From NCBI GenBank assembly GCA_943737045.1, contig CALSFV010000221.1, positions 1,116,001 to 1,180,000 of the forward strand: a DNA stretch of 64,000 nt, given 5' to 3'. The position numbers and the translations under genes are program-made. The stretch's first letter is position 1, and each line of letters begins with the position of its first letter. Positions 5,290 to 64,000 of the stretch are shown here, one piece after another. The notes beneath the pieces are model-generated. The model made no database searches and was not told the DNA's origin. It saw nothing but the letters and a program-made list of their open reading frames with translations. This stretch comes from Parapristionchus giblindavisi (lineage: Eukaryota; Nematoda; Chromadorea; Rhabditida; Diplogasteridae).

Positions 5290-6958
5290 CGCACTCTCTC
5301 TGATCTACGTGCTATTTCGCTTGGACTCGGTCTCTAAACATATAAATTCATTGTGGCTGTTGCTGGCTACTCTCGTACCAAATAAACATGTTTATTTTAT
5401 ACTGGTAATGCCATTGTTACAAAATAGCGTTCATATCGATTTATTTTATTTTATTTCCATATGTCTATCCATCTGCAAACAATGGAGAGCTTCCTGAAAA
5501 GATCAAAGATCAATTAATACCAAAAACAAATATCAAAGATCAATTAATACCAAAATCAAAGATCAATTAATACCAAAATCAAAGATCAAAGATCAATTAA
5601 TACCAACATCAAAGATCAAACATCAATTAATACCAAAATCAAAGATCAATTAATACCAAAATCAAAGATCAACCACATTTCATTTGTCCTCATCAGCTCA
5701 TACTATAGATTTATATTTATAGAATCCTTAGTCGATCACAAATGAAATCATAGTCGATCACAAATCAGAATCCAGTATGAACATGGTAGAAGTAACCCAT
5801 GAAGATATGTATCTCACTACTTCGGCCTGATCTAAAACAAATATATAGTCATATTCGAAGACGAGGGAGATATCATTTCCTTTACTTTTCATTTTTTCAT
5901 CTCTTCTCTCTATCGGTTATTTGATCATATCATTACACTAGTTAACCTATTTCCCCATCCATCTCATATCTCATATGATCAATCGATTTTACAACGATTT
6001 TATACAAAAGTGCATTAAATCTTGATAAAAACTTATTGAAAAATATAATTTCTCTGATATTCTGCAATACGGTCATGTCTCTCTTTCTCTCTCTCTCTCT
6101 CTCATTCTCAATACTTTCTCATATTGTGGTGATAGAGAAGAAAAAGAGAGGGAGGGGAGATATTGAGAGGTCAAGGGCCAGACATGGTTGTAAGAGGCAG
6201 GCGGGAGCTAGAGAGAGAGTGAGACTCTCGATCAATACCCTTTAGACGTCCTTCCTAGTGACGTCATAAGGTTGGTGCATTTTTGCTGACGCATGTCTTC
6301 CATGTACATACATCAATGGTCACCTTATATCAGCTTATGAAATAGCGGGGCAGAAATATTTTCTTTTCTGTGTTTTCCAAGTTGCCAGAGCTGTATGTTA
6401 TTTTCCGGACGGTTGTACTTTTGTGCAACTAAATTTTGTTTACTTACTATTCTCATTTTTGAAGTGTCCTCATTCCCATTTAGATATTATTCTACGGACA
6501 CTAAGCTTTCTTCTGATACTACGCTTGATGCTTTATCGCTTGTCGGAATTGCGCTGCATGCTGCTAAACACTATCGATTTCATTGTTTTCACTAAATTTC
6601 TTTATTTACGTTCGAATTTTCCTAATTTTTGAAATTTCCTCATTTCCTCGAATGATGTGTAAATCGTAATGAGAACATTTCAAACATTAATGAATATTCG
6701 ATCGTAAGTAAGCAATTTCGTTAACAATAATATAATGCTATCCGTAATATCAATACTGCTAAGCGAACTTGTCAAAACATAGAAACGCCACACGATCCGG
6801 TACCTATGCATAGTACAGCATATAAATGACACTTTGTCAGACGGGCTTCATTTGATTAGTGGAAAACAGGAGGGTCTCAAAAACACTCCAAAATTGCTTT
6901 CCTTTATTATAGTAAACTATTATAGATTAGAATCGTCGAATTCTCACATTGAATCAAA
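5290..6958 (+). repeat. Shared upstream block of the membrane-protein family, copy F
   Basis: This region carries the same upstream blocks as the other family copies. They are a piece with GTACCAAAT around 5,370-5,390, a CT-rich tract with GTCATGTCTCTC (6,073 onward) leading into a GA-rich tract, the mariner-like end AGGTTGGTGCATTT near 6,271, and the AATCGTCGAATTCTCACATTGAATCAAAATG leader just before the start codon. It is best read as the 5' flank and promoter region of the gene at 6,959, duplicated together with the gene. The short open frames in it are not supported. Confidence 0.6.
5505..5672. repeat. Minisatellite of GATCAA-type units
   Basis: Six or more tandem copies of a roughly 23-26 bp unit combine ATCAAAGATCAA with TTAATACCAAAA. 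Very short GATCAAA tracts of the same kind occur near 52,430, 57,305, 63,585-63,625 and 63,910-63,940, so this heptamer is a locally favoured simple repeat. Confidence 0.8.
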
Positions 6959-23782: not shown

Positions 23783-26573
<2,791 letters not shown>

Positions 26574-28564: not shown

Positions 28565-30751
28565 ATGGATCTACATAAGATCAGCCTAATATTTTTATTG
28601 GCGTTATTATATCTTCTCAGATTTGTATTTGTTGCGATAGGTATAGAAGTTTCTTCGACTTCGTACTTTTGATATTTCAAAACCAATTTCAGGATGCGTG
28701 GGAGTTCCCGTGAGTTTATTCGCCATTGGATATACATGGTACGAATACAACACGAATCCGATGGATAATGATTGGGTATGTGTTAGAGGAGAACTCATGT
28801 TTCTTCTTTAAAAAATGCGTTTAAAAATTGTTTCCATATTTTTTAATGAACATATTTATCAAGAGTGCACTCTGATTTTCATATTATAATTAGAAAAAAA
28901 TTCTACCAACTCGTGTTTTCCACTCATTCTCGTTCATTTTCATTGGACTTGTGGTTAAAAAAACACAACCAACACAATGCTTGAAAGCATGAAAATGAAG
29001 CCCTAATGATCGACTTTTAGCGAAAAAAATTAATTAAACTCGAGCAGAACGAAAGGATACACAAGCATTTTTTTGAATTTTCCGTTATACGGCGCTCCTC
29101 GGGGTAATGAATTATCTAATGTTCACTAATAAAATAATCACCCCGAAAAATCGGAGTGATGGTAGGATCAGAAATATATATTTGGTAGGGAATTATAAAG
29201 TATAATACATTGAGGTTAGTAGGATAAACAATCTGTTCATGGTAAAGATATCTTTATAACAAAAACATCATTTAATTCTTATACCTCTTCAATCATTACT
29301 AATAATTTAAAAAAATACTTTCAGGATATGGAAGTCGACAAGACTTGTATCTACGTACTAGCTTCGATTGGGTCGTTGTTTGCTCTTGCAGCAGCTTTGG
29401 GCATCCATATCTACCTTTTAAAGACAATGGACCGTTATGAGAAATATATTGGTGTAAGAGACGTTATGCTAGATAATATTTTTCCTCAGTTTTCCGAAGA
29501 TTACTAGCATTGCCAGATTGTCGGTGCTTAAAATTCATTAATCGATAAGAAGGATCCCACTATCGTTGTTCCTATCCACTTCTCTGTTTTTTTGGCCCGA
29601 GAAAAATTTGCATTGCCCTTCTCCCCCTGAAGAGCTAATATTCATTATTCATAGTGCAAAAAATCGAGTGGGCAGAGGGGACAAGACACCAGGGGAACCG
29701 CAGATCAATGAGTGGATTCTGCAATATTGTATATTATTATTTGAGAAGTTTGGATAATTTTGAAGCATTTTATTGGGAAGAGATGAAAAGTGTGACGGAC
29801 AGACAGACACGCACATACAGACAGACGTGTTTTATAATTTTATAGAGTAAAGTAATTGTTGCAGAATCTCGGTCCAAGTCAAGTGGACGCATTCTACGCG
29901 AGCTACGGTCACGTTTTCCCGCAACTTTTGACGAAATTGAAGAGTCCACTTGTCAATTTGTTAAAGTACGGCGGCTTTAGCTTATTGTGCGGTTGTTGGT
30001 CAGCATACAGTAGTTGTATTATAAATCAGGCGTTTTTGGTTAAATAATATAATTATTTATTTCAGGGATTTGGAATACTTCCGTAAGGTTGCTAAAGCGA
30101 GGAAACAGTGGCGCGAAGCAGTGGACAGTGATAATAGGTGCACTTTGCAATAGTTATATATGGTGTAGCTGAACTACTGTAGCCGATCTTTGAGCGGAGC
30201 ACTGTAGCTTTAGGACATTTTACTATTGTTGGCCAGCATATGTAATTGTCAAACAGTCATTTTTTGTTGAATAATAGGATTATTAATTTCAGGGATTCAG
30301 AGTACATCCGTCAGGTTGTTAAAGCTCTGAAAGAGTGTGACGATGCTGTTAAAGAAACTGATAAGAGGTTAATACATTTGACAATTGTTACAGTATACAC
30401 TGTAGCTGAACTACGGTAGCCAATCTTTCAGCTACGGTCACCTCGCGCAGCGTGACTCAACAGAGAAGGCGAGGTATAGTAGCTTCAGGATAAGGTACTA
30501 TTGTTAGGACTGTGGGGCATGAGTATATTTTCGCCATACGGAATAACATTCACACAAATATTCAATAAATGAATAACGGCATATGCCTATTCTTTCGGCA
30601 TATTTAGGCATGAAAATGGCATATTCTGCCTTACCGGCATCTCTATGCCGGTAAGGCAGAATATGCCATTTTCACAGCCCTCGTCAGCATACCGTAGTTG
30701 TCAAAGAGGTCTATTGGACCAGCAACTTGGACTATTCTAACCAATCTCAAA

Positions 30752-33017: not shown

Positions 33018-35549
<2,532 letters not shown>

Positions 35550-38982: not shown

Positions 38983-41240
38983 CGCACACTCCCTAACAGC
39001 GGAGGGGTAGAGACAGGGGGAGGGCACAAAGTTTCAAAATCATTCTAGACCATTCATATTTTATGGTTAGAGTCCCTAGGGGTGGGATACACTTCATCCA
39101 ATAAATTGGCCAGAATTATCGATTTTTGATCTACCAAAAGTGAAAAAATCAAATTGATTTTTTCCAATCGTGTCATATATCTTTCGAAAGGGCGTTGAAA
39201 GTTACATAAAACTGACAAGATTCAGAAGATTTCATTCATTGGTTTTTGAGAAAAATCCGATTTTACGAAAAAAATGCCAGATTTTCTTCCTTTCGTTAAA
39301 TAGCAGACAACTTTCCAGAAATCTCTTATTTCTGCCCCAGTTGATATCTTGTGTAAAAATAGGTGGGCTATCCGAATAACACAGTCATTTCAAAAATCTG
39401 CGTTCCGGAACATGCCATATTGACAAAAAACTAGCGTATTTTAGCGTTACAATCGTCGACGCGGGTTCGATTCCGGACAGGGGACAAAATTTTTGCAAAC
39501 TTTTTTTAGTTCCGTTTTAGATTCTAATCATCTTTTTTCGATGTTTAGGACTATTTTAATTGGTTTTCAGATCGCTCAATATCTAAAATGCAATGTTCTG
39601 AAAGTCGCAGTTTCTATTTTTCAGCATGTTTATCAAATGATATATTTGGGACATTAAGCACATACATCGTCATTTGATTACATCTTTATCAACAGAATTA
39701 AAATTGATTAGTTCTCCAATTCAATTGTTTCGTCCATGTTGAATATTTCGTTTATGTTGTTTCTGTTTGAAGTGACCATTAGATCTTCATCAGATATCAA
39801 CACCTCATCATCAATTGCATTAGCTTCGTGCTTGTCCAATTCGTTCTACAAATTCCTCCATTCTGTATCGAAATGCAGTTTATCGCTATCCACATCGATT
39901 GTAGAACGTTTCTCTCTAATTCCACTTTGCTTTCTTTTTTTTGTCAATGTTAACGGATGCCGTGGCTCTTGCAGTCTTTATGCGACTATAATACGAACTG
40001 ATTTGGCGAGCACTTAATCTTTCCTCCGGTGAAAATATCCTCGATCCATTAGGGTTTAGCGCTTCTCGCATTCTTTTCTCGCCATCTTCAGGACACTTTG
40101 GTTCCCTTATTGATTTCCTCATCGAATAATATGATAACAAAATTCTTTGCTTTTTCTGTGTATCGATTTGCCAATTTCTTCGTCTTGAGCGCATATCCTT
40201 GTACAACAATCTCGGAGACATGTTCATCTGCTTCATTCACTTCGGCGAATGCATCTTCTTATTATTTACGATGTTACAAAACAAAAAAAGTCTCGGTTGC
40301 AAGCGGTTCAACTCTCGTTCGTCTCTTCTTCTCTCACCAAATTAACATCAATAAATTAAAGGATACCCTCCTAGAAGGCTATAGGCAAGTCAGGAGTTGT
40401 AATAGTTCCATCAAGCAATTGCTGACGAAGTATTGAGCGAGGACTTCGTGGGTTATCCCTATTGTTTTCTGAATTCTGTTTCATGATTCACTATTGGAAA
40501 AGGATCAATCTTTGACTCTGAAGAACGTCTTCAATAGCTGATCAGATGAAAATGAACGAAGAATTGTTCAAGATCAAAGTACCCCGTGTATGGGTCCTCA
40601 GCACGCCCACAATGTAATTTAGTGGCAACCGGAAAAACAACAACTGAAATAACTATAAATCATGTGACTTATTATTAAAACCAATTAAAATAGTCCTAAA
40701 CATCGAAAAAAGATGATTAGAAGCTAAAACGGAACTAAAAAAGTTTGCAAAAATTTTGTCCCCTGGCCGGAATCGAACCAGCATCGACGATTGTAACGCT
40801 AAAATATGCTAGTTTTTTGTCAATATGTCATGTTCCGGAACGCAGATTTTTAAAATGACTGTGTTATTCGAATAGCCCATCTATTCTTACACAAGATATC
40901 AACTGAGGCAGGAATAAGAGATTTCTGGAAAGTGGACTGCTATTTAACGAAAGGAAGAAAATCTGGCATTTTTTCGTAAAATCGGATTTTTCTCAAAAAT
41001 CAATGAATGAAATCTTCTGAATCTTGTCAGTTTTATGTAACTTTCAACGCCCTTTCGAAAGATATATGACACGATTGGAAAAAAACAATTTGATTTTTTC
41101 ACTTTTGGTAGATCAAAAATCGATAATTCTGGCCAATTTATTGGATGAAGTGTATCCCACCCCTAGGGACTCTAACCATAAAATATGAATGGTCTAGAAT
41201 GATTTTGAAACTTTGTGCCCTCCCCCCTCCGCCCTTACAG
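38983..41240. mobile_element. 2.2-kb element with long inverted repeats and a decayed ORF
   Basis: Arms of about 600 bp (about 38,999-39,610 and 40,640-41,240) are inverted copies; GGGAGGGCACAAAG, TCCCTAGGGGTGGGATAC and CGAAAGGGCGTTGAAAG occur in both. Each arm contains a B-box-like GGTTCGATTCC (39,463 on plus; about 40,772 on minus, with one change). The centre carries a minus-strand coding relic. No target duplication could be fixed because a PLE fragment adjoins the right end. Confidence 0.8.
39708..40290 (-). pseudogene. Unrecognised protein relic inside the long-TIR element
   Basis: Read on the minus strand from about 40,290, a coherent charged protein can be followed through two frameshifts (near 40,095 and 39,925) and one in-frame stop (near 39,850) to a TAA at 39,708. 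Landmarks are KTKKLANRYTEKAKNFVIIL, a PEDGEKRMREALNPNGSRIF segment, ERLSARQISSYYSRIK and an acidic tail (DDEVLISDEDLMV). The basic central part with Tyr-rich helix is plausible for DNA binding. I do not recognise the family. It is likely a former element-encoded protein, or a captured host gene. Confidence 0.55.
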
Positions 41241-41658
41241 AAAGCCCGTTTTAACATTCATTAATTTATCTCTAGAACGAACTAACAATCAAGACGATAA
41301 TTGTGCTTTTCTTGATCTACAAATCGATATAATTTATAGCGGTCAAGTAAAAACCTCACTTTATAACAAAACAGATGATTATGAATTCAACGTAATTCGA
41401 TATCCCCATTACCAATCAAATTCACCTCTTAATATTGGTCTAAATACACTGCATGGTGAAACTATTCGCATATACAGGAATTGTTCTGAATATAAAGACT
41501 TCGTTAGCAGAATGAAATCATTGACAAAGTACTTTGTATCGATTGACTACCCTATATACTTAGTGCATAAAAGAATATTCAGAACATTGAATACTAATCC
41601 ATCAATATCCATTAAATATGCAACTAGTAATAGCGATATTTGCATGCGTTGTCTGTGA
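41236..41658 (+). pseudogene. C-terminal fragment of a second Penelope-like element
   Basis: About 135 codons are homologous to the end of the PLE ORF at 57,897: LYNKTDDYEFNVIRYP, PLNIGLNTLHGE, RIYRNCSEYKDF and NPSISIKYATSNSDIC line up with the full-length element, at clearly lower identity than a recent copy would show. The 5' part is missing; the fragment begins at the right end of the long-TIR element. The 3' flank to about 42,300 is the element's own tail and holds a hammerhead-like motif. Confidence 0.9.
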
Positions 41659-42140
41659 TAAACGTGCTTTGGTATAGGCAATGTTTCCAATAAGAGGCAG
41701 AGGTAGAGAGACCACTTCCCAGACGATCGATAACACCTGCGCAACCTAGTGATCTACCTGAACAGAGACACACATGCGCGCCTCTCTCACTCTATCCATT
41801 CTTCACTTCCTCTTAGTTAGTCGACTCTCGTCAATCGATATATGAGGAGGACCTACTTAGGGATTAAGGACGCAATCAATTCGACTTAAGGATACGTAAG
41901 CACTTATTATTGTACACATACTAGTGTTATTTTGCTAAAAGATATATGCATGAATTTTGGTAATATTAGACTAATACGAATATATTCATATAGTTTTTAA
42001 GTGTATAGTTTTCATGTATATGTTCACATTTTTCATGTATATGTTCACGTTATTGTATTATTACTAACCATAGAAATGAGATTTTGCATGCTTTAGCTAT
42101 AGAAACTATCATAATAAACCCTTTTGTAAACTAACTCAAT

Positions 42141-42215
42141 GGGGGTTCTACTGAAGATGGCCAACCCCATTGGGTAGAGGTTCACTGTCTAGAACCTAAT
42201 GGCCGAAACAGTGAA
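42141..42215 (+). ncRNA. Hammerhead-like core with permuted strand order, PLE fragment
   Basis: Segments in order are GGTTCTA-CTGAAGA (42,144-42,157); stem II strand GGCCA (42,159-42,163); a linker with an ACCC/GGGT hairpin; TTCACTG-TC-TAGAACC (42,181-42,196); TGGCC-GAAA-CAGTGAA (42,200-42,215). Stem I (GGTTCTA/TAGAACC), stem II (GGCCA/TGGCC) and stem III (TTCACTG/CAGTGAA) are perfectly complementary. The catalytic-core strings CUGANGA, GAAA and GUC are all present. Canonical order would put the GAAA strand second, not last. Cleavage would be expected after 42,189. The location is 483 bases 3' of the ORF stop. Confidence 0.6.
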
Positions 42216-43526
42216 TCTCGCCTCTACTAATAACTACTTTAGATTCATTAATCTCTAATTTTATGAGTACATTTGCATGTTTAACTATTACATATTTCGC
42301 TTATAATTAATCGATAAGAAGGATCCCACTATCGTTGTTCCTATCCACTTCTCTGTTTCTTTTGTCCCGGGAAAAAATTGTATTGCCCTTCTTCCTCTGA
42401 AGAGCTAATATTCACTATTCATAGCGTAAAAAATCGAGTGGGCAAAGGGGAAAAGACACCCAGGGAACCGCAGATCAATGATTGGATTATGCAGTATAGT
42501 ATATTATTATTTGAAAAGTTTAGATAATTTTGAAGCGGTTTATTGGGAAAAGATGAAAAGTGTGACGGACAGACAGACACGCACAAACAGACAGACGTGT
42601 TTTATAATTTTATAGAGTAAAGTAATTGTTGCAGAATCCAGGTCCAAGTCAAGTGGACGCATTCTTCGCGAGCTATGGTCACTTTTTCCCGCAACTTTTG
42701 ACGAAATTGAAGAGTCCACTTGTCAATTTGTTAAAGTACGGCGGCTTTAGCTTATTGTGCGGTTGTTTTTCAGCATACAGTAGTTGTAAAACAGGAGTTT
42801 TTGGTTAAATTTTAAAAATAATATAATTATTAATTTCAGGGATTTGGAGTACTTCAATCAGGTTGCTAAAGCGCGGAAACAGTGGCGCGAAGCAGTGGAC
42901 ACTGATAATAGGTGCACTTCGCAATAGTTATATATGGTGTAGCTGAACTACGGTTGCCGATCTTTGAGCGGGGAACTGTAGGACATTTTACTATTGTTGG
43001 TCAACATATGTATGTACAGTAGTTGTCAAACAGTAATTTTTGGTTTAATAATAGGATTATTAATTTCAGGGATTCAGAGTACATCCGTCAGGTTGTTAAA
43101 GCTCTGAAAGAGTGTGATGAAGCTGTTAAAGAAACTGATAAGAGGTTGGTTCACGTGATAATTATTACAGTATACACTGTAACTGAACTACGGTAGTCAA
43201 TCTTTCAGCTACGGTCACCTCGCGCAGCGTAACACGACAAAGAAGGCGAGGTATGGTAGCTTCAGGATATTGTACTATTGTTAGGACTGTGGGGCATGAG
43301 TATATTTTCGCCAAACGGAATAACATTCACACAAATATTCAATAAATGAATAACGGCATATGCCTATTCTTTCGGCATATTTAGGCATGAAAATGGCATA
43401 TTCTGCCTTACCGGCATCTCTATGCCGGTAAGGCAGAATATGCCATTTTCACAGCCCTCGTCAGCATACCGTAGTTGTCAAAGAGGTCTATTGGACCAGC
43501 AACTTGGACTATTCTAACCAAGCTCA

Positions 43527-52000: not shown

Positions 52001-52600
52001 TCCTATGTAGTAGGTGATTATCTTCTTCAGATTGTTGTTGAACATGATGAGTCGACCTTTAAATAGGATAAGAGATTAAAATAGATTCAATGATTAGACT
52101 TTTTCCAATTGTTCTCATCACTTTGTACACTTTCTGATCTCTTCCAATGAGAAGCAATGAATGCAATTTTCGAACACGGAATAGTTGGATAATGCGAAAC
52201 GACACAGAAATAAGCTAAATATAAGATGCGTACCAGTCACAGAGGAATAATTTCCACAACCATCAGTCCAAATCCCTGGGTTCTGCGCTACAGAAGTCGT
52301 CCTTCACTTGAGGTGGTCCGATTGACCTTCGTAGACATCATCTACTAAGGTTGATGGTTCTGAAAAGGATTTGATTAGTTTTGAGAAACGAGAGAGGGAA
52401 AATGAACGAGGAACGACATTGTAAAGATCAAAGATCAAATTGCGAAAAAAGGACAATACTTGAAACTAGAAGAAAGAAGACGACCGAAAACCGAAATTGA
52501 AATGAACAAGAATAGAAATACGTAGTCTACATATGATAATGAATCATATAATGAATATTTAATAATGAATCATCAGCAAATTGAAATATAATGGATGAAT
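52001..52600. other. Spacer, no gene recognised
   Basis: AT-rich sequence with a GATCAAAGATCAA tract at about 52,428. No exon chain was found. Confidence 0.4.
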
Positions 52601-52639
52601 GGCTAGACAAATAACATCGCAAAGAAGGAAGAAGGAGAG

Positions 52640-52975
52640 GGAGGGATATAGAAATGAAAGAAGGAGAGGAAGGGATATAGCAAATGACAGAAGGAATAAC
52701 AGAAGGAGATGGAGGGATATGGTAAATGACAAAATGAATGTCAGAAGGAGAGTGAGAGATATAGTAAATGACAAAAGGAATGACAGAAGGAGAGGAAGGG
52801 ATATAGCAAATGACAAAAGTAATGACAGAAGGAGAGGAAGGGATATAGCAAATGACAGAAGGAATAACAGAAGGAGAGGGAGGGATGTAGCAAATGACAA
52901 AAGGAATGACAGAAGAAGAATTAGGGAAATAGCAAATGACAAAAGGAAGGACAGAGGGAGAGGAAGAGATATAGC
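52640..52975 (+). repeat. 42-bp minisatellite, open in frame
   Basis: About eight tandem units of AAGGAGAGGAAGGGATATAG…AATGACA-type sequence occur. Because the period is 42 bp, all units stay in one frame and the open frame 52,599-52,997 reads repeated 14-residue blocks of the form RRRGRDIANDKRND. The opposite strand is also open (Leu/Ser-rich). No start context, splice sites or family support a gene. Confidence 0.85.
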
Positions 52976-52999
52976 GAAATTACGAAACCAAGCATAGCA

Positions 53000-57409: not shown

Positions 57410-57484
57410 TATTCAATAATTCAAATTTGTTAAATTATTATTAAGATAGTCTAATAGTTTTGTAAAAGCCTAGATAAACGTGAT

Positions 57485-57550
57485 CGGTGTTTCGGCCCTT
57501 GGTCTAGACACCGACCACTCCCCTGGGGGTGGGCCTCGTCAGTAGACAAG
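57485..57550 (-). ncRNA. Hammerhead-like core with permuted strand order, full PLE
   Basis: Minus-strand order from 57,550: CTTGTCTA-CTGACGA; GGCCC; linker with CCCC…GGGG; CGGTG-TC-TAGACCAA; GGGCC-GAAA-CACCG. Stem I pairs GTCTA with TAGAC plus two further pairs across a bulge. Stem II pairs GGCCC/GGGCC. Stem III pairs CGGTG/CACCG, with the last A of GAAA opposite the U of GUC. Same order of parts and different stem sequences compared with 42,141-42,215. Expected cleavage is after the C at 57,507. Confidence 0.62.
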
Positions 57551-57896
57551 CCCCAGGAGAACAATTATTTGAGTAATGTTTAAAAAAGGAAATAACGCGC
57601 AAGTATCCTAGAACAACACGCAAAGATCCTATGAGAGAGATCAGAGAGGGAAAGAAAACCAAGTGGTAACTCATAAATAAAGATAATGAGACATTAGAGA
57701 ATGGTTGAGTGATAAAAGAGGAGAAGGGAAGGGATGGGTTGTGATGTGAGAGGAGTGTACATGGGAATCGCAAAATCGATTAGTGATCTACCCATCCTCT
57801 GTCTCGTCTGCTGTCTGAGTGTAATATTGATCTTATGTTTTAGTCACCTCTAATCAATAAGTCAGACCATAAAAGAGAGCAGATAAGATATTTCAT

Positions 57897-60851
57897 TTAA
57901 TTTCTAAGAACAATTGTGCAAATTTCAGCATTGGGAATACCATACTTGATGGACATTGAGGGATTCTTTCTTAGTGTCTTAAAAATTGTCGAACAAATGA
58001 CATGTTTTGGATATCCTATATTAGTAAAATACTGTGTGAGCGAGACTATTCTTTCCAAGAAATCATCTTTGTGTGAACAGTTTCGAAAGATTCTAACTAC
58101 TTCTCCATAGAAGGTATTCAATCCTATCTTCAAAGGAACATTGGATTCAAAATTCGGATATCTTATCACATTAAAAGTGTAATCATCAGTTTTGTTGTAG
58201 AGCGAAATCTTTGGTGTACCCTGCCTTAACTCGATATTGAGATCTAGAAAAGAGGAGGAAGTCATCGAATGATTTGTTTGTTCTAATGTCAATGAATGAT
58301 GATACATTTCTTTGGTTATTTTTACAAATTCTTCAGTTTTGGTTGAAACATGTAATAGATCATCAATGTAACGGAATGTTCTATTTAGGTGATAGGCAAG
58401 TGGGTGATTATGCTTAACCTTCTCTTTAATATATTGAAATTCCATTACGGCTAACGTAAGATCTGCTATTTGTGGTGAGGCATTGTTTCCCTGAGGAATT
58501 CCTTTTTTCTGTTTGTAGTATGTACCTCCATAGAATGCATAACTGTTATTCAAAATGTAGTCGATGATTAGTTTCACATCATTACTATGGAAGGACAGAC
58601 CGCTCCTTGAACTATTATTTTGGTCGTAATGAATACGGTTTCCTTTGACAACAATGTAGTCAGATTCTGCATTTTTAAAAAGAAGATCGATTAAATAGAA
58701 TAGTTTTTCTTTGACAACTTTGTGTGGCAAGTTTGTAAAAAGAGATGAAAAGTCTGCGCAAAATACTTTCGTATTTTTATCTTTGATTGTTTGAATGTTG
58801 TGAATAACTTTGAAAGTATTCTGAACTGAGAAATAATGTTTTGTTTTTGAAAGACTTGTTGTATTACTGCAATAATTGCGGAAGTGATTTTGTAAGAAAA
58901 TCAAAATTTTTTGTAAATATATCGATATCGGTTTCAAGCTACTATTATGAGCTCCTGTTATGAATCTAAATTTAACCGGATTTTTATGCATTTTTGGAAT
59001 ACCGTAAATTCGTGGCAGAGAACAGTTTTCTAATGCTTCAATATTGAAACTTTTTGTGAGTTTTTCATGATCTTTGATCTTCTGGATAGGGTCGAAATTT
59101 TCCACAGGCTCGTATGTTCTTTCTCCGTCATCATTAGTGTTCATTTCTCTTTCCATAAACTCCAAGTATAGTTTTTTGCAAGTTATTGCGTAATTTCCGG
59201 ATGCTTTGTCAACCATTGTGACAACGAAATGTTTGTGTAGGAACTTTATTGCTGGAGAATTTCGATCAATCGTATCTGCATTTTTATTTGCATATTTTGT
59301 GTTGAAGTTAATTTTTCTTTCAATGAACTTAAAGAGAGTATTTTTCTCATTTTCTGTATTTTGATTTTGTTTACTACGACTGGCTATTCTATCGATTAAT
59401 TGTGAACAGGACAGTTTTAATGCGTCTAAAAATTCTTCCCTACTGACAAACGACTGCAATCGGAATTTCGTTCCTCTATCCAAAATCTTTTTGAGCTTTA
59501 CGTCTTTTATGAATGAGGTACTTCCTGTACAAATGTGTCCTAGCGACTGATCCACAAACTCTTTAAAATTACTACAAATGCAAGAGGATGTCGAGAGTAC
59601 ATTGTCAATTATCGATCTGTCGAGGTGTTTCAAGAAGGACCCATAGTTACATAAAATAGTTGAAGTAGGGCTTGAAAGAGAGTAAGTAAGTGCAATTCGA
59701 GGACACTCTTTATCCACACCAAGTATACTCCGGTATAGGTCCTTTGCATATGTTGAATTTAGATATTTAACGAGTGGTAACCTTTCCATAAAATTGCCAT
59801 AAAACTCGATTGAGAATCTTTCTTCATTTCGAATGACTCGTTTTTCTTCTTTGTAATGCCTCCAATGGTGATTGCAGACAATAGAGAATATTTTGTATCT
59901 GTCTACATGAGGCAATGATTGAAAATCACTTGTTGCCGCGAAAAATTCGAGTTTTCTGAGATTATGATGTGACAGGGATCTACCGTATATAAATAGTTCA
60001 CGAGTGTCTAACAGACTTATTTTGGAGATTAAATCCTCAACTGATTCAGTGCATCTTGATGCTGTTTTTCTTCTACGCTTTTGTCTGTTTCCTCTTTTAC
60101 GATAGTTTCCACCAGTGTATGGAAGAGTGTAGTAAGGGTGTGTTCGTTTTTCAAGTGGATTAATCTCATCACTGATATTTCCAAAATGTTTTATCGAATC
60201 GTTCAAACCAAGTGGATATGCTGTGTTCAGAGCTTTAATCCACAATAACTCTTTCTCACGTAATTGGTTATCTGTTTTTGCATGATCAAGAATATCTATT
60301 CTAAAACTTTCACTATCGTGACCATGCTCCTTGAAGTGTTTGCTCAAGTATGTTTTGCAACGAGCTCCCAGTTCGGTTTTAGTACTGAATGATTGTCTAT
60401 GTTTCGAGAAGCGCAGCTTTAGTGTCTGCGTTGTTTCGCCAACATACTGAAGTCCACAAATATCACAAGTGATAAGGTAAACTATAAATCTACTTTCGCA
60501 GTTGTCTCGTTCGCTTTTGTTTGTCAAGAATGTACAGTTTGTGATAGTGCTTGTAGCACCGGCTCTGAAGTTAATTTTAGGACAAATCTTACATTTTTTA
60601 TTTTTTTTATTGCTGCACTTCACTCCGATGTGATCGGTGAAATCTCCGATCTTTACAAGAATATGGTTTTCCTCCCTCCGCATGAAAGTAGCTTTCGTAC
60701 AAGAGGAGGGGGGTTTGGGACACGCGGTTTTCTCGGTTTTTGCGAGCAGATTTAAGGGGCGCTCTACCCCGTAAGCTTGTAGGCCGGTCGTGTGGACGAC
60801 TGAGTGGGTCTGCCACTCGCGGTGTGACATCCCACGAGGGGGATACCGCAT
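57897..60851 (-). CDS. GIY-YIG endonuclease / reverse transcriptase of a Penelope-like element
   Basis: A 984-residue uninterrupted polyprotein that primes and copies element RNA at a nicked target. Residues about 75-135 hold Cys pairs (CKIC 87-90, CDIC 129-132) likely to bind zinc. Residues about 121-217 form a GIY-YIG nuclease domain (VYLIT at 124-128, YVGET at 136-140, RFSKH ending 151, a Glu near 201, YPLGLN 212-217). The reverse transcriptase follows: RIYGIPKMHK near 615, the first catalytic Asp in FCADFSSLF near 700, GIPQGNNASP near 780 and RYIDD near 830. Having the nuclease before the RT is the reverse of canonical Penelope and is the published Chlamys/Naiad layout. The ORF is intact, so the copy may be active. 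The start could lie slightly up- or downstream, as no initiation context decides it. Confidence 0.93.
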   Translation of the reverse strand: MRYPPRGMSHREWQTHSVVHTTGLQAYGVERPLNLLAKTEKTACPKPPSSCTKATFMRREENHILVKIGDFTDHIGVKCSNKKNKKCKICPKINFRAGATSTITNCTFLTNKSERDNCESRFIVYLITCDICGLQYVGETTQTLKLRFSKHRQSFSTKTELGARCKTYLSKHFKEHGHDSESFRIDILDHAKTDNQLREKELLWIKALNTAYPLGLNDSIKHFGNISDEINPLEKRTHPYYTLPYTGGNYRKRGNRQKRRRKTASRCTESVEDLISKISLLDTRELFIYGRSLSHHNLRKLEFFAATSDFQSLPHVDRYKIFSIVCNHHWRHYKEEKRVIRNEERFSIEFYGNFMERLPLVKYLNSTYAKDLYRSILGVDKECPRIALTYSLSSPTSTILCNYGSFLKHLDRSIIDNVLSTSSCICSNFKEFVDQSLGHICTGSTSFIKDVKLKKILDRGTKFRLQSFVSREEFLDALKLSCSQLIDRIASRSKQNQNTENEKNTLFKFIERKINFNTKYANKNADTIDRNSPAIKFLHKHFVVTMVDKASGNYAITCKKLYLEFMEREMNTNDDGERTYEPVENFDPIQKIKDHEKLTKSFNIEALENCSLPRIYGIPKMHKNPVKFRFITGAHNSSLKPISIYLQKILIFLQNHFRNYCSNTTSLSKTKHYFSVQNTFKVIHNIQTIKDKNTKVFCADFSSLFTNLPHKVVKEKLFYLIDLLFKNAESDYIVVKGNRIHYDQNNSSRSGLSFHSNDVKLIIDYILNNSYAFYGGTYYKQKKGIPQGNNASPQIADLTLAVMEFQYIKEKVKHNHPLAYHLNRTFRYIDDLLHVSTKTEEFVKITKEMYHHSLTLEQTNHSMTSSSFLDLNIELRQGTPKISLYNKTDDYTFNVIRYPNFESNVPLKIGLNTFYGEVVRIFRNCSHKDDFLERIVSLTQYFTNIGYPKHVICSTIFKTLRKNPSMSIKYGIPNAEICTIVLRN

Positions 60852-61692: not shown

Positions 61693-61774
61693 GATCAAAT
61701 ATTCAATAATTCAAATTTGTTAAATTATTATTAAGATAGTCTAATAGTTTTGTAAAAGCCTAGATAAACGTGAT

Positions 61775-61840
61775 CGGTGTTTCGGCCCTTGGTCTAGACA
61801 CCGACCACTCCCCTGGGGGTGGGCCTCGTCAGTAGACAAG
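61775..61840 (-). ncRNA. Hammerhead-like core with permuted strand order, truncated PLE unit
   Basis: Identical copy of 57,485-57,550, offset by 4,290 bp. A transcript starting at or above this unit would contain two motifs, which would release one unit-length RNA if both cleave. Confidence 0.62.
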
Positions 61841-62186
61841 CCCCAGGAGAACAATTATTTGAGTAATGTTTAAAAAAGGAAATAACGCGCAAGTATCCTA
61901 GAACAACACGCAAAGATCCTATGAGAGAGATCAGAGAGGGAAAGAAAACCAAGTGGTAACTCATAAATAAAGATAATGAGACATTAGAGAATGGTTGAGT
62001 GATAAAAGAGGAGAAGGGAAGGGATGGGTTGTGATGTGAGAGGAGTGTACATGGGAATCGCAAAATCGATTAGTGATCTACCCATCCTCTGTCTCGTCTG
62101 CTGTCTGAGTGTAATATTGATCTTATGTTTTAGTCACCTCTAATCAATAAGTCAGACCATAAAAGAGAGCAGATAAGATATTTCAT

Positions 62187-62515: not shown

Positions 62516-63586
62516 AAAATGAAGTAATATTCGATAATTCTCATAAAACTCAATAAATATCTACAATTACATAATTATCATTTTATAGTATCCAGAGGGT
62601 ATCATCAAATTGCTTGCGAGCTTGCCTAAAAATGCTACATAACGAACGTAATGAGAGTAACTTATCTAAGAAATGTTTAAAAAAAATCTTATGTACTGCT
62701 CAAAATTAAATACAATCCCGTATGGTAATCCCCACCCGCCACCCCTCTCAACAAATACAATCCCGTAAGGTACAATCTCGGAGGATGCATCCTGGTCTAC
62801 CACGTCGTAAATCCTTCTGCTTCGTCCAAGTACTCGTGGCCATAATATGAATCTTAGTATCGATCATCCACTTCTCACTTTCTCTCATTTATTAGTATTG
62901 TACCATTATGGAAAATCGAAAATAGTAATGTAAGTCAACCCAACCCAACCATGTTTTGTTCTTTCGTACGAAAAATCTCGCTGTGATCAAGAAATTGCAG
63001 TGTATATAACATTTCTTCATATCTGATTTCACGCTCAGAAATGATAAATATTATTATTATTATCTTTGTGATTCATGTTGCGGCCGGTACGTCTAATGTC
63101 TTTGTGTATCACATTCACACTGGTCTTACATAGATATTAATCATCTATCAACAAAATGATTTCATTAATGATCGATAATCTCTGCACTTGTTATTGAGTT
63201 GTGTGCGGTCAACAAAATACCGATGATACTCGCAGAATTTATTGTACTGAAGATAAACATGGGTAGTGGTATTCGAATATGATAGCTGTGATGAAAAAGG
63301 CACAGTACGAACTGATCAAAGATTGATTAGATAAGGTACTGTAGAAATATTAATCGATCAGGCAGCTGCGACACAAAGTCCTTGGTCCTTGCTGCATGTA
63401 ACGCCGGAGGGACACGCTGAGCAAGCAGCACCCTCGAGGTAGATCGGACTGTCTAGCCAGTTACCTATGTAAGATAATTGATCTTTGATCTCTAAACTAT
63501 AAGATGATTGCTTACTTGGCTTGATATTGGCATGCAACTAGAGCTTCTAGATTGTTCTGAAAAAGAGCAACACCGCAAAGATCAAA
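62515..63586 (+). repeat. 1.07-kb direct repeat A', right of the PLE
   Basis: Same orientation and full length of repeat A (offset 6,177 bp). It joins the truncated PLE end at CTGCC|AAAATGAAG and continues on its right into unrelated DNA after CAAAGATCAAA. Confidence 0.92.
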
Positions 63587-63688
63587 GATCAACGATTATA
63601 CGTTATATTCTGACAAAGATCAAAGATCAAGATGAAAGACCTGGGTAGCGTGTCCGATTCCACAGTAAGAGTGGTACTGTTCAGACCA

Positions 63689-63830: not shown

Positions 63831-64000
63831 AGACTGTTGAAACTCATTTGACCTTGAGTCACATGCACGTTGAGGGACGAACGAGACATTAATCTAGAGA
63901 CCGGAACAAACCAAAGATCAAAGATCAAAGATCAAATACCGCCGTCCAACTCTGGTAGTAGTATAGGTTCTCGCCCGAGGTTTTGCTATTCGAGTGCTGG

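Follow-up and report, generated by a model that had tools for sequence, protein, structure and literature searches.

Probable type-CSG hammerhead ribozymes in Penelope-like elements with an N-terminal GIY-YIG domain in the nematode Parapristionchus giblindavisi

Introduction

The hammerhead ribozyme was divided into blocks C, G, and S in PMC10085705, and natural RNAs were found in which these blocks stand in non-circular orders. One of these orders was named type CSG in 2023 and was based on two similar metagenome sequences found in DNA (CSG-1 and CSG-2). Both have a helix joining stems I and II, and two constructs of 77 and 78 nt were cleaved in vitro at the expected site. However, the covariation was described as 'modest', and the authors graded the evidence for biological relevance as weaker because of the few covariation events. 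The main text of PMC10085705 does not name a host or an element for type CSG, and Penelope-like elements appear there only in the title of a reference. The same study described the type-SGC ribozyme HRIMA-1, which resembles the motif reported below in being a non-circular permutation with two pseudoknots, a helix between stems I and II, and a linker of few nucleotides (typically three) between their strands; it differs in its S-G-C order and in its origin from metatranscriptomes. In the parts of the literature covered by our search, no other use of the term type-CSG together with hammerhead ribozyme was found; hammerheads and non-circular permutation both come up in two subsequent papers about RNA superposition.

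An initial annotation of the window, the whole 64,000-nucleotide stretch of the genome of P. giblindavisi that was analysed here, had proposed a new hammerhead topology. This topology is that of type CSG, and the proposal of novelty is ruled out by the publication of PMC10085705. The motifs share with CSG-1 and CSG-2 the C-S-G order, the core letters, the helix between stems I and II, and their discovery in DNA, a comparison made with the published description and not letter by letter. They are approximately 80–91 nt long versus 77 and 78 nt for the published constructs. Whereas the published type rests on two metagenome sequences with modest covariation and no element, the motifs described here form seven families with strong covariation in Penelope-like elements. 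The novel finding is the natural home of type CSG, namely, a fixed place in Penelope-like elements with an N-terminal GIY-YIG domain. These elements resemble those of the Naiad/Chlamys type, with which they share a GIY-YIG domain preceding the reverse transcriptase, a single frame of approximately 890–980 amino acids, and tandem copies. A CSG hammerhead in such elements is unreported in the titles and abstract openings of the literature searched.

Results

The motif, referred to as family 1, occupies positions 42137–42227 on the forward strand and was delimited by direct reading, a covariance match, and its fold score. From 5' to 3', it comprises the 5' strand of a bridging helix (CAATGGGG, 42137–42144), the 5' strand of stem I (GGTTCTA, 42144–42150), the block C core CUGAAGA (CTGAAGA in DNA, 42151–42157), an extra U (42158), the 5' strand of stem II (GGCCA, 42159–42163), and the 3' strand of the bridging helix (CCCCATTG, 42165–42172). 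These are followed by the 3' strand of stem III (42175–42187), the GUC cleavage triplet (42187–42189), the 3' strand of stem I (TAGAACC, 42190–42196), UAA, the 3' strand of stem II (TGGCC, 42200–42204), the block G core GAAA (42205–42208), and the 5' strand of stem III (CAGTGAA, 42209–42215). The core strings and the perfect stems I (7 bp), II (5 bp), and III (7 bp) are as the initial annotation had given them. Stem III pairs TTCACTG (42181–42187) with CAGTGAA, has an additional A15.1-U16.1 pair, and continues across a bulge into an outer part, TAGAGG (42175–42180) with CCTCTA (42221–42226), which had not been recognized. The initial annotation had also overlooked the bridging helix, by which the distal ends of stems I and II are held together. 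It is 8 bp long, or 10–11 bp when extended outward with one G-U pair, and shares G42144 with the outermost pair of stem I. The extra U between A9 and stem II is the one deviation from the hammerhead core at this site.

The stem coordinates show that all three stems cross, and the description of the motif as a pseudoknotted hammerhead was correct. Its best nested fold consists of two strong hairpins with a minimum free energy of -35 kcal/mol and a z-score of -3.51. The loops of these two hairpins are complementary to each other over 7 bp (with one base common with the bridging helix) and 5 bp, and these loop-loop pairings are stems I and II.

We scanned the window for blocks C, G, and S in every order, requiring stems of 4 bp or more and no block farther than 120 nt from block C. 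This six-order scan found three places, 42151(+), 57542(-), and 61832(-), which represented two families on both strands. All were in the order C-S-G, while the other five orders gave zero matches in the window; the sequence CUGANGA, GUC, GAAA, which is non-circular relative to the canonical order, is the sole order that was matched, as previously claimed for this site. The chance level was assessed with a first-order Markov sequence made from the window, which keeps its dinucleotide make-up. In 917 Mb of this sequence, 117 CSG matches were obtained, corresponding to 0.008 per 64 kb versus the three observed, and the earlier statement that the chance is small holds. Over 82.8 Mb of Markov sequence, a looser CSG-only scanner with a longer span and more offsets gave 34 matches when each stem had 4 bp or more (0.026 per 64 kb), 1 match with stems of at least 5, 5, and 5 bp, and 0 matches with stems of at least 5, 5, and 7 bp or 7, 5, and 7 bp. 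Viral contigs were used as a natural chance control. One of two motif patterns gave no match there, and the other gave four chance matches, all without stems. Nine stretches in the protein alignment scan of viral contigs matched the pattern, with zero relatives among them.

No family in Rfam 15 reached its cut-off on the motif, and the weak match to the type III hammerhead (14.5 bits versus a cut-off of 48.5) covered part of the family 2 motif. The canonical cyclic order CUGANGA, GAAA, NUH is not present at the site; the strand-order scan and the Rfam scores below the cut-off rule out a canonical hammerhead at 42137–42227. A looser scan that ignored stem III found canonical-like downstream S sites in family 2, which form no stem III, and none in family 1. 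A second S site of canonical appearance past the family 2 motif was discounted, since its C15.2 would lie opposite A and it forms no stem III. A Hammerhead_1 search gave no match in the genome of P. giblindavisi or in the control genomes; this search misses minimal hammerheads such as those at loci L135 and L136 described below and is therefore uninformative on canonical hammerheads in this genome.

The location of the motif in a Penelope-like element, also part of the initial annotation, is supported by a 5'-truncated remnant at 41215–41658(+). This remnant encodes the C-terminal 130 or so codons of the family 1 frame, with 125 of 130 amino acids (96%) identical to the intact 887-amino-acid protein at locus L088, and the motif lies approximately 480 nt downstream of its end. 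The two other motifs belong to family 2, whose sequence is unlike that of family 1 and whose protein is 54% identical to it. They flank an intact frame of 984 amino acids (57897–60851, minus strand) with GIY-YIG at residues 123–210 and a reverse transcriptase at 623–850; this protein gave no sequence match to solved structures. One copy lies downstream of the frame (57480–57559, minus strand; predicted cut 3' of 57507) and the other, with the same core, upstream (61770–61849, minus strand; predicted cut 3' of 61797), 4290 bp apart. Two full family 1 units (L088 and L089) similarly have a ribozyme motif on both sides of an intact frame, 4416 bp apart, and the frame of a third (L090) contains a stop. 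A tandem arrangement with a repeat on either side of the frame was encountered in both families, with units of 4290 bp in family 2 and 4416 bp in family 1.

Other repeats were observed in the window. A stretch of approximately 1.1 kb occurs in four copies on the forward strand (25126–26212, 29537–30623, 33990–35076, and 42306–43400); the first three, spaced approximately 4.4 kb apart, are 91–92% identical to the last, which starts near where the Penelope-like insertion ends. Each copy is followed at a short distance by a long ATT array (26341, 30752, 35216, and 43529). A 42-bp minisatellite with eight copies (52653–52987) lies within the open frame 52599–52997. GATCTTT/AAAGATC runs (57400, 63580–63640, 63912–63936, and 5498–5672) were present close to the ends of the family 2 element as well as in other parts of the window; they are possibly a tail or target signature of the element.

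The genome of P. giblindavisi (251 Mb, 703 contigs) contained 137 GIY-YIG matches at E 0.01 or better among 139 candidates scored. From outside family 2, we hand-picked 28 elements with a view to variety and frame length and read 551-nt stretches at the expected place of the ribozyme. The motif was detected in 8 of the 20 elements read upstream and in 18 of the 20 read downstream (the 12 elements without an upstream motif and 8 further elements). Thus, 26 of the 28 elements carry a CSG hammerhead, always on the sense strand of the element. These 26 sites fall into five families (families 1 and 3–6), or six with family 2, and the addition of locus L087, described below, gives seven families from two sources. 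The extra U is present in families 1, 5, and 6 and is missing from families 2, 3, and 4 and L087.

A covariance model was then built from family 2 alone; it included the two nested helices and left out stems I and II. This model detected family 1 at 42136–42219 (E = 1.8e-7) and recovered the same 26 sites as the scanner (E 3.1e-13 to 3.2e-6). Over 41 loci, it found the same 27 full-length sites as the scanner and one further partial match. CUGANGA, GAAA, and GUH were unchanged in 27 of the 27 full-length sites, even though the model does not require them. The partial match, at L112:372–423(-), scored 24 bits upstream of a family 3 type element and is perhaps a decayed ribozyme copy. At L078 (C202:1700400–1700900), a family 2 ribozyme stands head to head with an inverted copy and the junction lies within the motif, as in an inverted tandem insertion.

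GIY-YIG is N-terminal to the reverse transcriptase, in a single frame, in families 1–5. Both domains scored above the Pfam cut-offs in families 2 and 4; GIY-YIG scored above and the reverse transcriptase below in families 1, 3, and 5. GIY-YIG was matched in family 6, which is 50% identical to family 1, and the reverse transcriptase was not. In a tree of families 1–6, L087, and six further proteins, families 1 and 5 were sisters, as were families 3 and 4. L087 was placed outside a group of the P. giblindavisi families plus P0002, although the placing of L087 and of the other long branches is unsure.

L087 came from genome contigs of bacteria and archaea that were scanned by protein alignment; 32 stretches matched a pattern, and this one was confirmed. 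It is a 5.3-kb contig binned as a Flavobacteriaceae MAG, and is most simply explained as eukaryotic DNA misbinned into a bacterial MAG. The contig closes on itself through a 119-bp end overlap (unit 5217 bp), a closure that a tandem may have produced during assembly. Its protein is 36% identical to that of family 1 over 887 aligned positions, and neither a GIY-YIG nor a reverse transcriptase domain was matched in it. The CSG hammerhead lies approximately 300 nt past the end of the frame, has the cut triplet GUA, and was found by the family 2 covariance model (E 1.7e-5); its bridging helix and stem III have little sequence in common with the other families. The DNA of this motif gave no match in the genome of P. 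giblindavisi in a search that had no positive control.

We examined the covariation of the stems in 10 representatives; the scanner from which they came requires the core letters and a minimum of 3 bp per stem. Among 170 stem cells, 166 were standard pairs (0.976), and both sides were changed in 11 of the 17 pairs. The four unpaired cells were the outermost counted pair of stem I in f3 and f3b and two outer counted pairs of stem III in f1b. When the 3' strands were re-dealt among the representatives, the mean paired fraction was 0.80 versus 0.976, and none of 2000 trials was as high; the observed value was reached in 1, 0, and 0 of 2000 trials for stems I, II, and III, respectively, counts that are not strict probabilities because the rows are related. 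The stem II offset (0 or 1) and the cut site were chosen partly by pairing. Since the covariance model, which makes no demand on stems I and II, found the same 27 sites, none had been dropped for want of these stems. Pairs were counted by structural parsing in a script because MAFFT (families 1 and 2) and model-fitted alignments misregistered a stem II strand by one base. The bridging helix, for which the best register was searched and the L087 strands were entered by hand, was 7–12 bp long in all 10 representatives. Its sequence differs between families, and one pair changes from A-U to G-C between f3 and f3b. The absence of conserved stems in related elements, which had been named as grounds for rejecting the motif, was not what we found; the stems are kept, with covariation.

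The strand before CUGANGA can alternatively pair with the core GANGAG in f2, f3, f3b, f4, and L087 and form a hairpin of 5–6 bp, located at 57535–57550(-) in family 2 and at L087:538–553. This pairing is only 2–3 bp in f1, f5, and f6. The variable N7 letter follows the pairing change in the alternative hairpin. The hairpin may represent an off-state that masks the core, or it may be a side effect of base composition.

Hammerheads of ordinary order are also present in this genome. In the group with weak matches to the GIY-YIG profile, two loci were read, L135 (C258) and L136 (C122), and both have the usual protein order with the reverse transcriptase before GIY-YIG. The Pfam matches in L136 (reverse transcriptase 210–336, GIY-YIG 524–597) are both slightly below the cut-offs; L135 is an inverted pair in which GIY-YIG was matched twice, and its order was read by eye from two frames that overlap. 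Approximately 210–240 nt past the frame, both loci carry minimal hammerheads in C-G-S order with hardly any stem III (L135:3518(+); base 2303 of L136, minus strand), in inverted pairs that place the motif on both strands. The minimal type I (CGS) hammerheads found in Penelope-like elements resemble the present motifs in their core letters and in their position in the 3' flank of the element. In contrast, they have the ordinary order and almost no stem III and, at these two loci, accompany a C-terminal GIY-YIG. One genome, therefore, holds both ribozyme designs.

Discussion

The initial annotation was right in reading the motif as a pseudoknotted, non-circular hammerhead in a Penelope-like element, and its claim of a novel topology does not stand. 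We consider it very likely that 42137–42227(+) is a type-CSG hammerhead, with a predicted cut after C42189, and that it belongs to the terminal repeat of a Penelope-like element whose GIY-YIG domain is N-terminal. The cut position, which had been predicted previously, is accepted here by analogy with the constructs described in PMC10085705. The bridging-helix hairpin would form early and present the stem I 5' strand, CUGANGA, and the stem II 5' strand in its loop. The stem III hairpin would also form early, with the cleavage site and the 3' strands of stems I and II in its loop. The two loops may then pair as stems I and II and produce a normal hammerhead core, in which, by homology to the published type-CSG RNAs, the RNA would be cut after C42189 and, on the minus strand, 3' of 57507 and 61797. 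In families 1 and 2, the frame of the tandem elements is flanked by ribozymes, so that cleavage would give unit-length RNA with a ribozyme cut site at its start and its end. Most likely, tandem transcripts are cut in this manner, and a read-through transcript would be trimmed to 4290 nt in family 2 and 4416 nt in family 1.

Several observations count against a ribozyme. Cleavage of the published CSG RNAs is slow, at 0.004 and 0.026 per min (PMC10085705). In f2 and L087, the hairpin that hides the core is part of the best nested fold, and stem I of family 3 is short, with 4 bp before a mismatch. No motif was found within the 551-nt stretches read in 2 of the 28 hand-picked elements. Among the 86 genome loci examined earlier, in which 8 sites were represented twice, nine had a broken or incomplete motif; these failures were substitutions in the core or stems, L077 was without the 5' part, and some decayed copies have lost core letters.

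A core that is active only between tandem copies, with blocks C and G from one copy and block S from the next in the canonical order, had also been proposed. The elements do stand in tandem, and small Penelope-like hammerheads have been reported to cleave as dimers (Lunse 2017, by its title as cited in PMC10085705). However, the partner S block would be 4.3–4.4 kb away versus approximately 30 nt for the local one, and the bridging helix, present in every family, is meaningful only locally. Furthermore, the 77- and 78-nt CSG constructs cleave alone as single short molecules (PMC10085705), and stem III is long here (8 bp and more) versus minimal in L135 and L136. We rejected tandem-copy assembly as the main mode on account of the local helix, these constructs, and the distance between copies, and regard it as improbable overall. 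It is similarly improbable that the structure no longer cleaves and has been kept as a binding or initiation site for the reverse transcriptase or nuclease of the element. Two stable hairpins were present in the three motifs folded, adjoining the end of the element, and PMC11167929 reports that PAc, another Penelope-like element, inserts in vitro with a mutated hammerhead. Since PAc insertion was unaffected by this mutation, transposition may not depend on cleavage. However, CUGANGA, GAAA, and GUH are constant in all of the full-length sites while the helices change freely, and this makes a mere binding site unlikely because such a site would not need the catalytic letters. PMC11167929 also suggests that the PAc ribozyme is protein-assisted, which would fit the alternative hairpin as a possible off-state.

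The remaining alternative is that the motif resembles a hammerhead by chance or is the S-G portion of an ordinary one. The lack of an Rfam match above the cut-off and the weak type III score in part of the family 2 motif are in its favour. However, it is set against the expected chance rate in the window, the stemless matches in the viral contigs, and the like position of the motif across many element families, and is already refuted by the covariation in every stem. We regard it as having almost no likelihood.

We hold a broader proposal to be evenly balanced between true and false. Type CSG would be ancestral and clade-wide in the elements with an N-terminal endonuclease and the canonical minimal hammerhead would accompany a C-terminal one, such that the rearrangement of the ribozyme tracks that of the protein. 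The metagenome CSG sequences would be fragments of these elements, and the alternative hairpin would, in several families, keep the ribozyme off until a protein or a change in fold releases it. Since only two C-terminal loci were read, a correspondence between the order of the protein and that of the ribozyme is a lead and not a rule.

Type CSG formerly relied on two sequences; it now comprises seven families that covary strongly and occupy a fixed place in a defined mobile element. Its biological role is now directly testable, and both hammerhead designs may be compared within one host. The families also offer several natural sequences with which structural studies may address how the same active site is rebuilt from strands in a scrambled order. 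Moreover, the origin of a non-circular permutation gains a concrete lineage.
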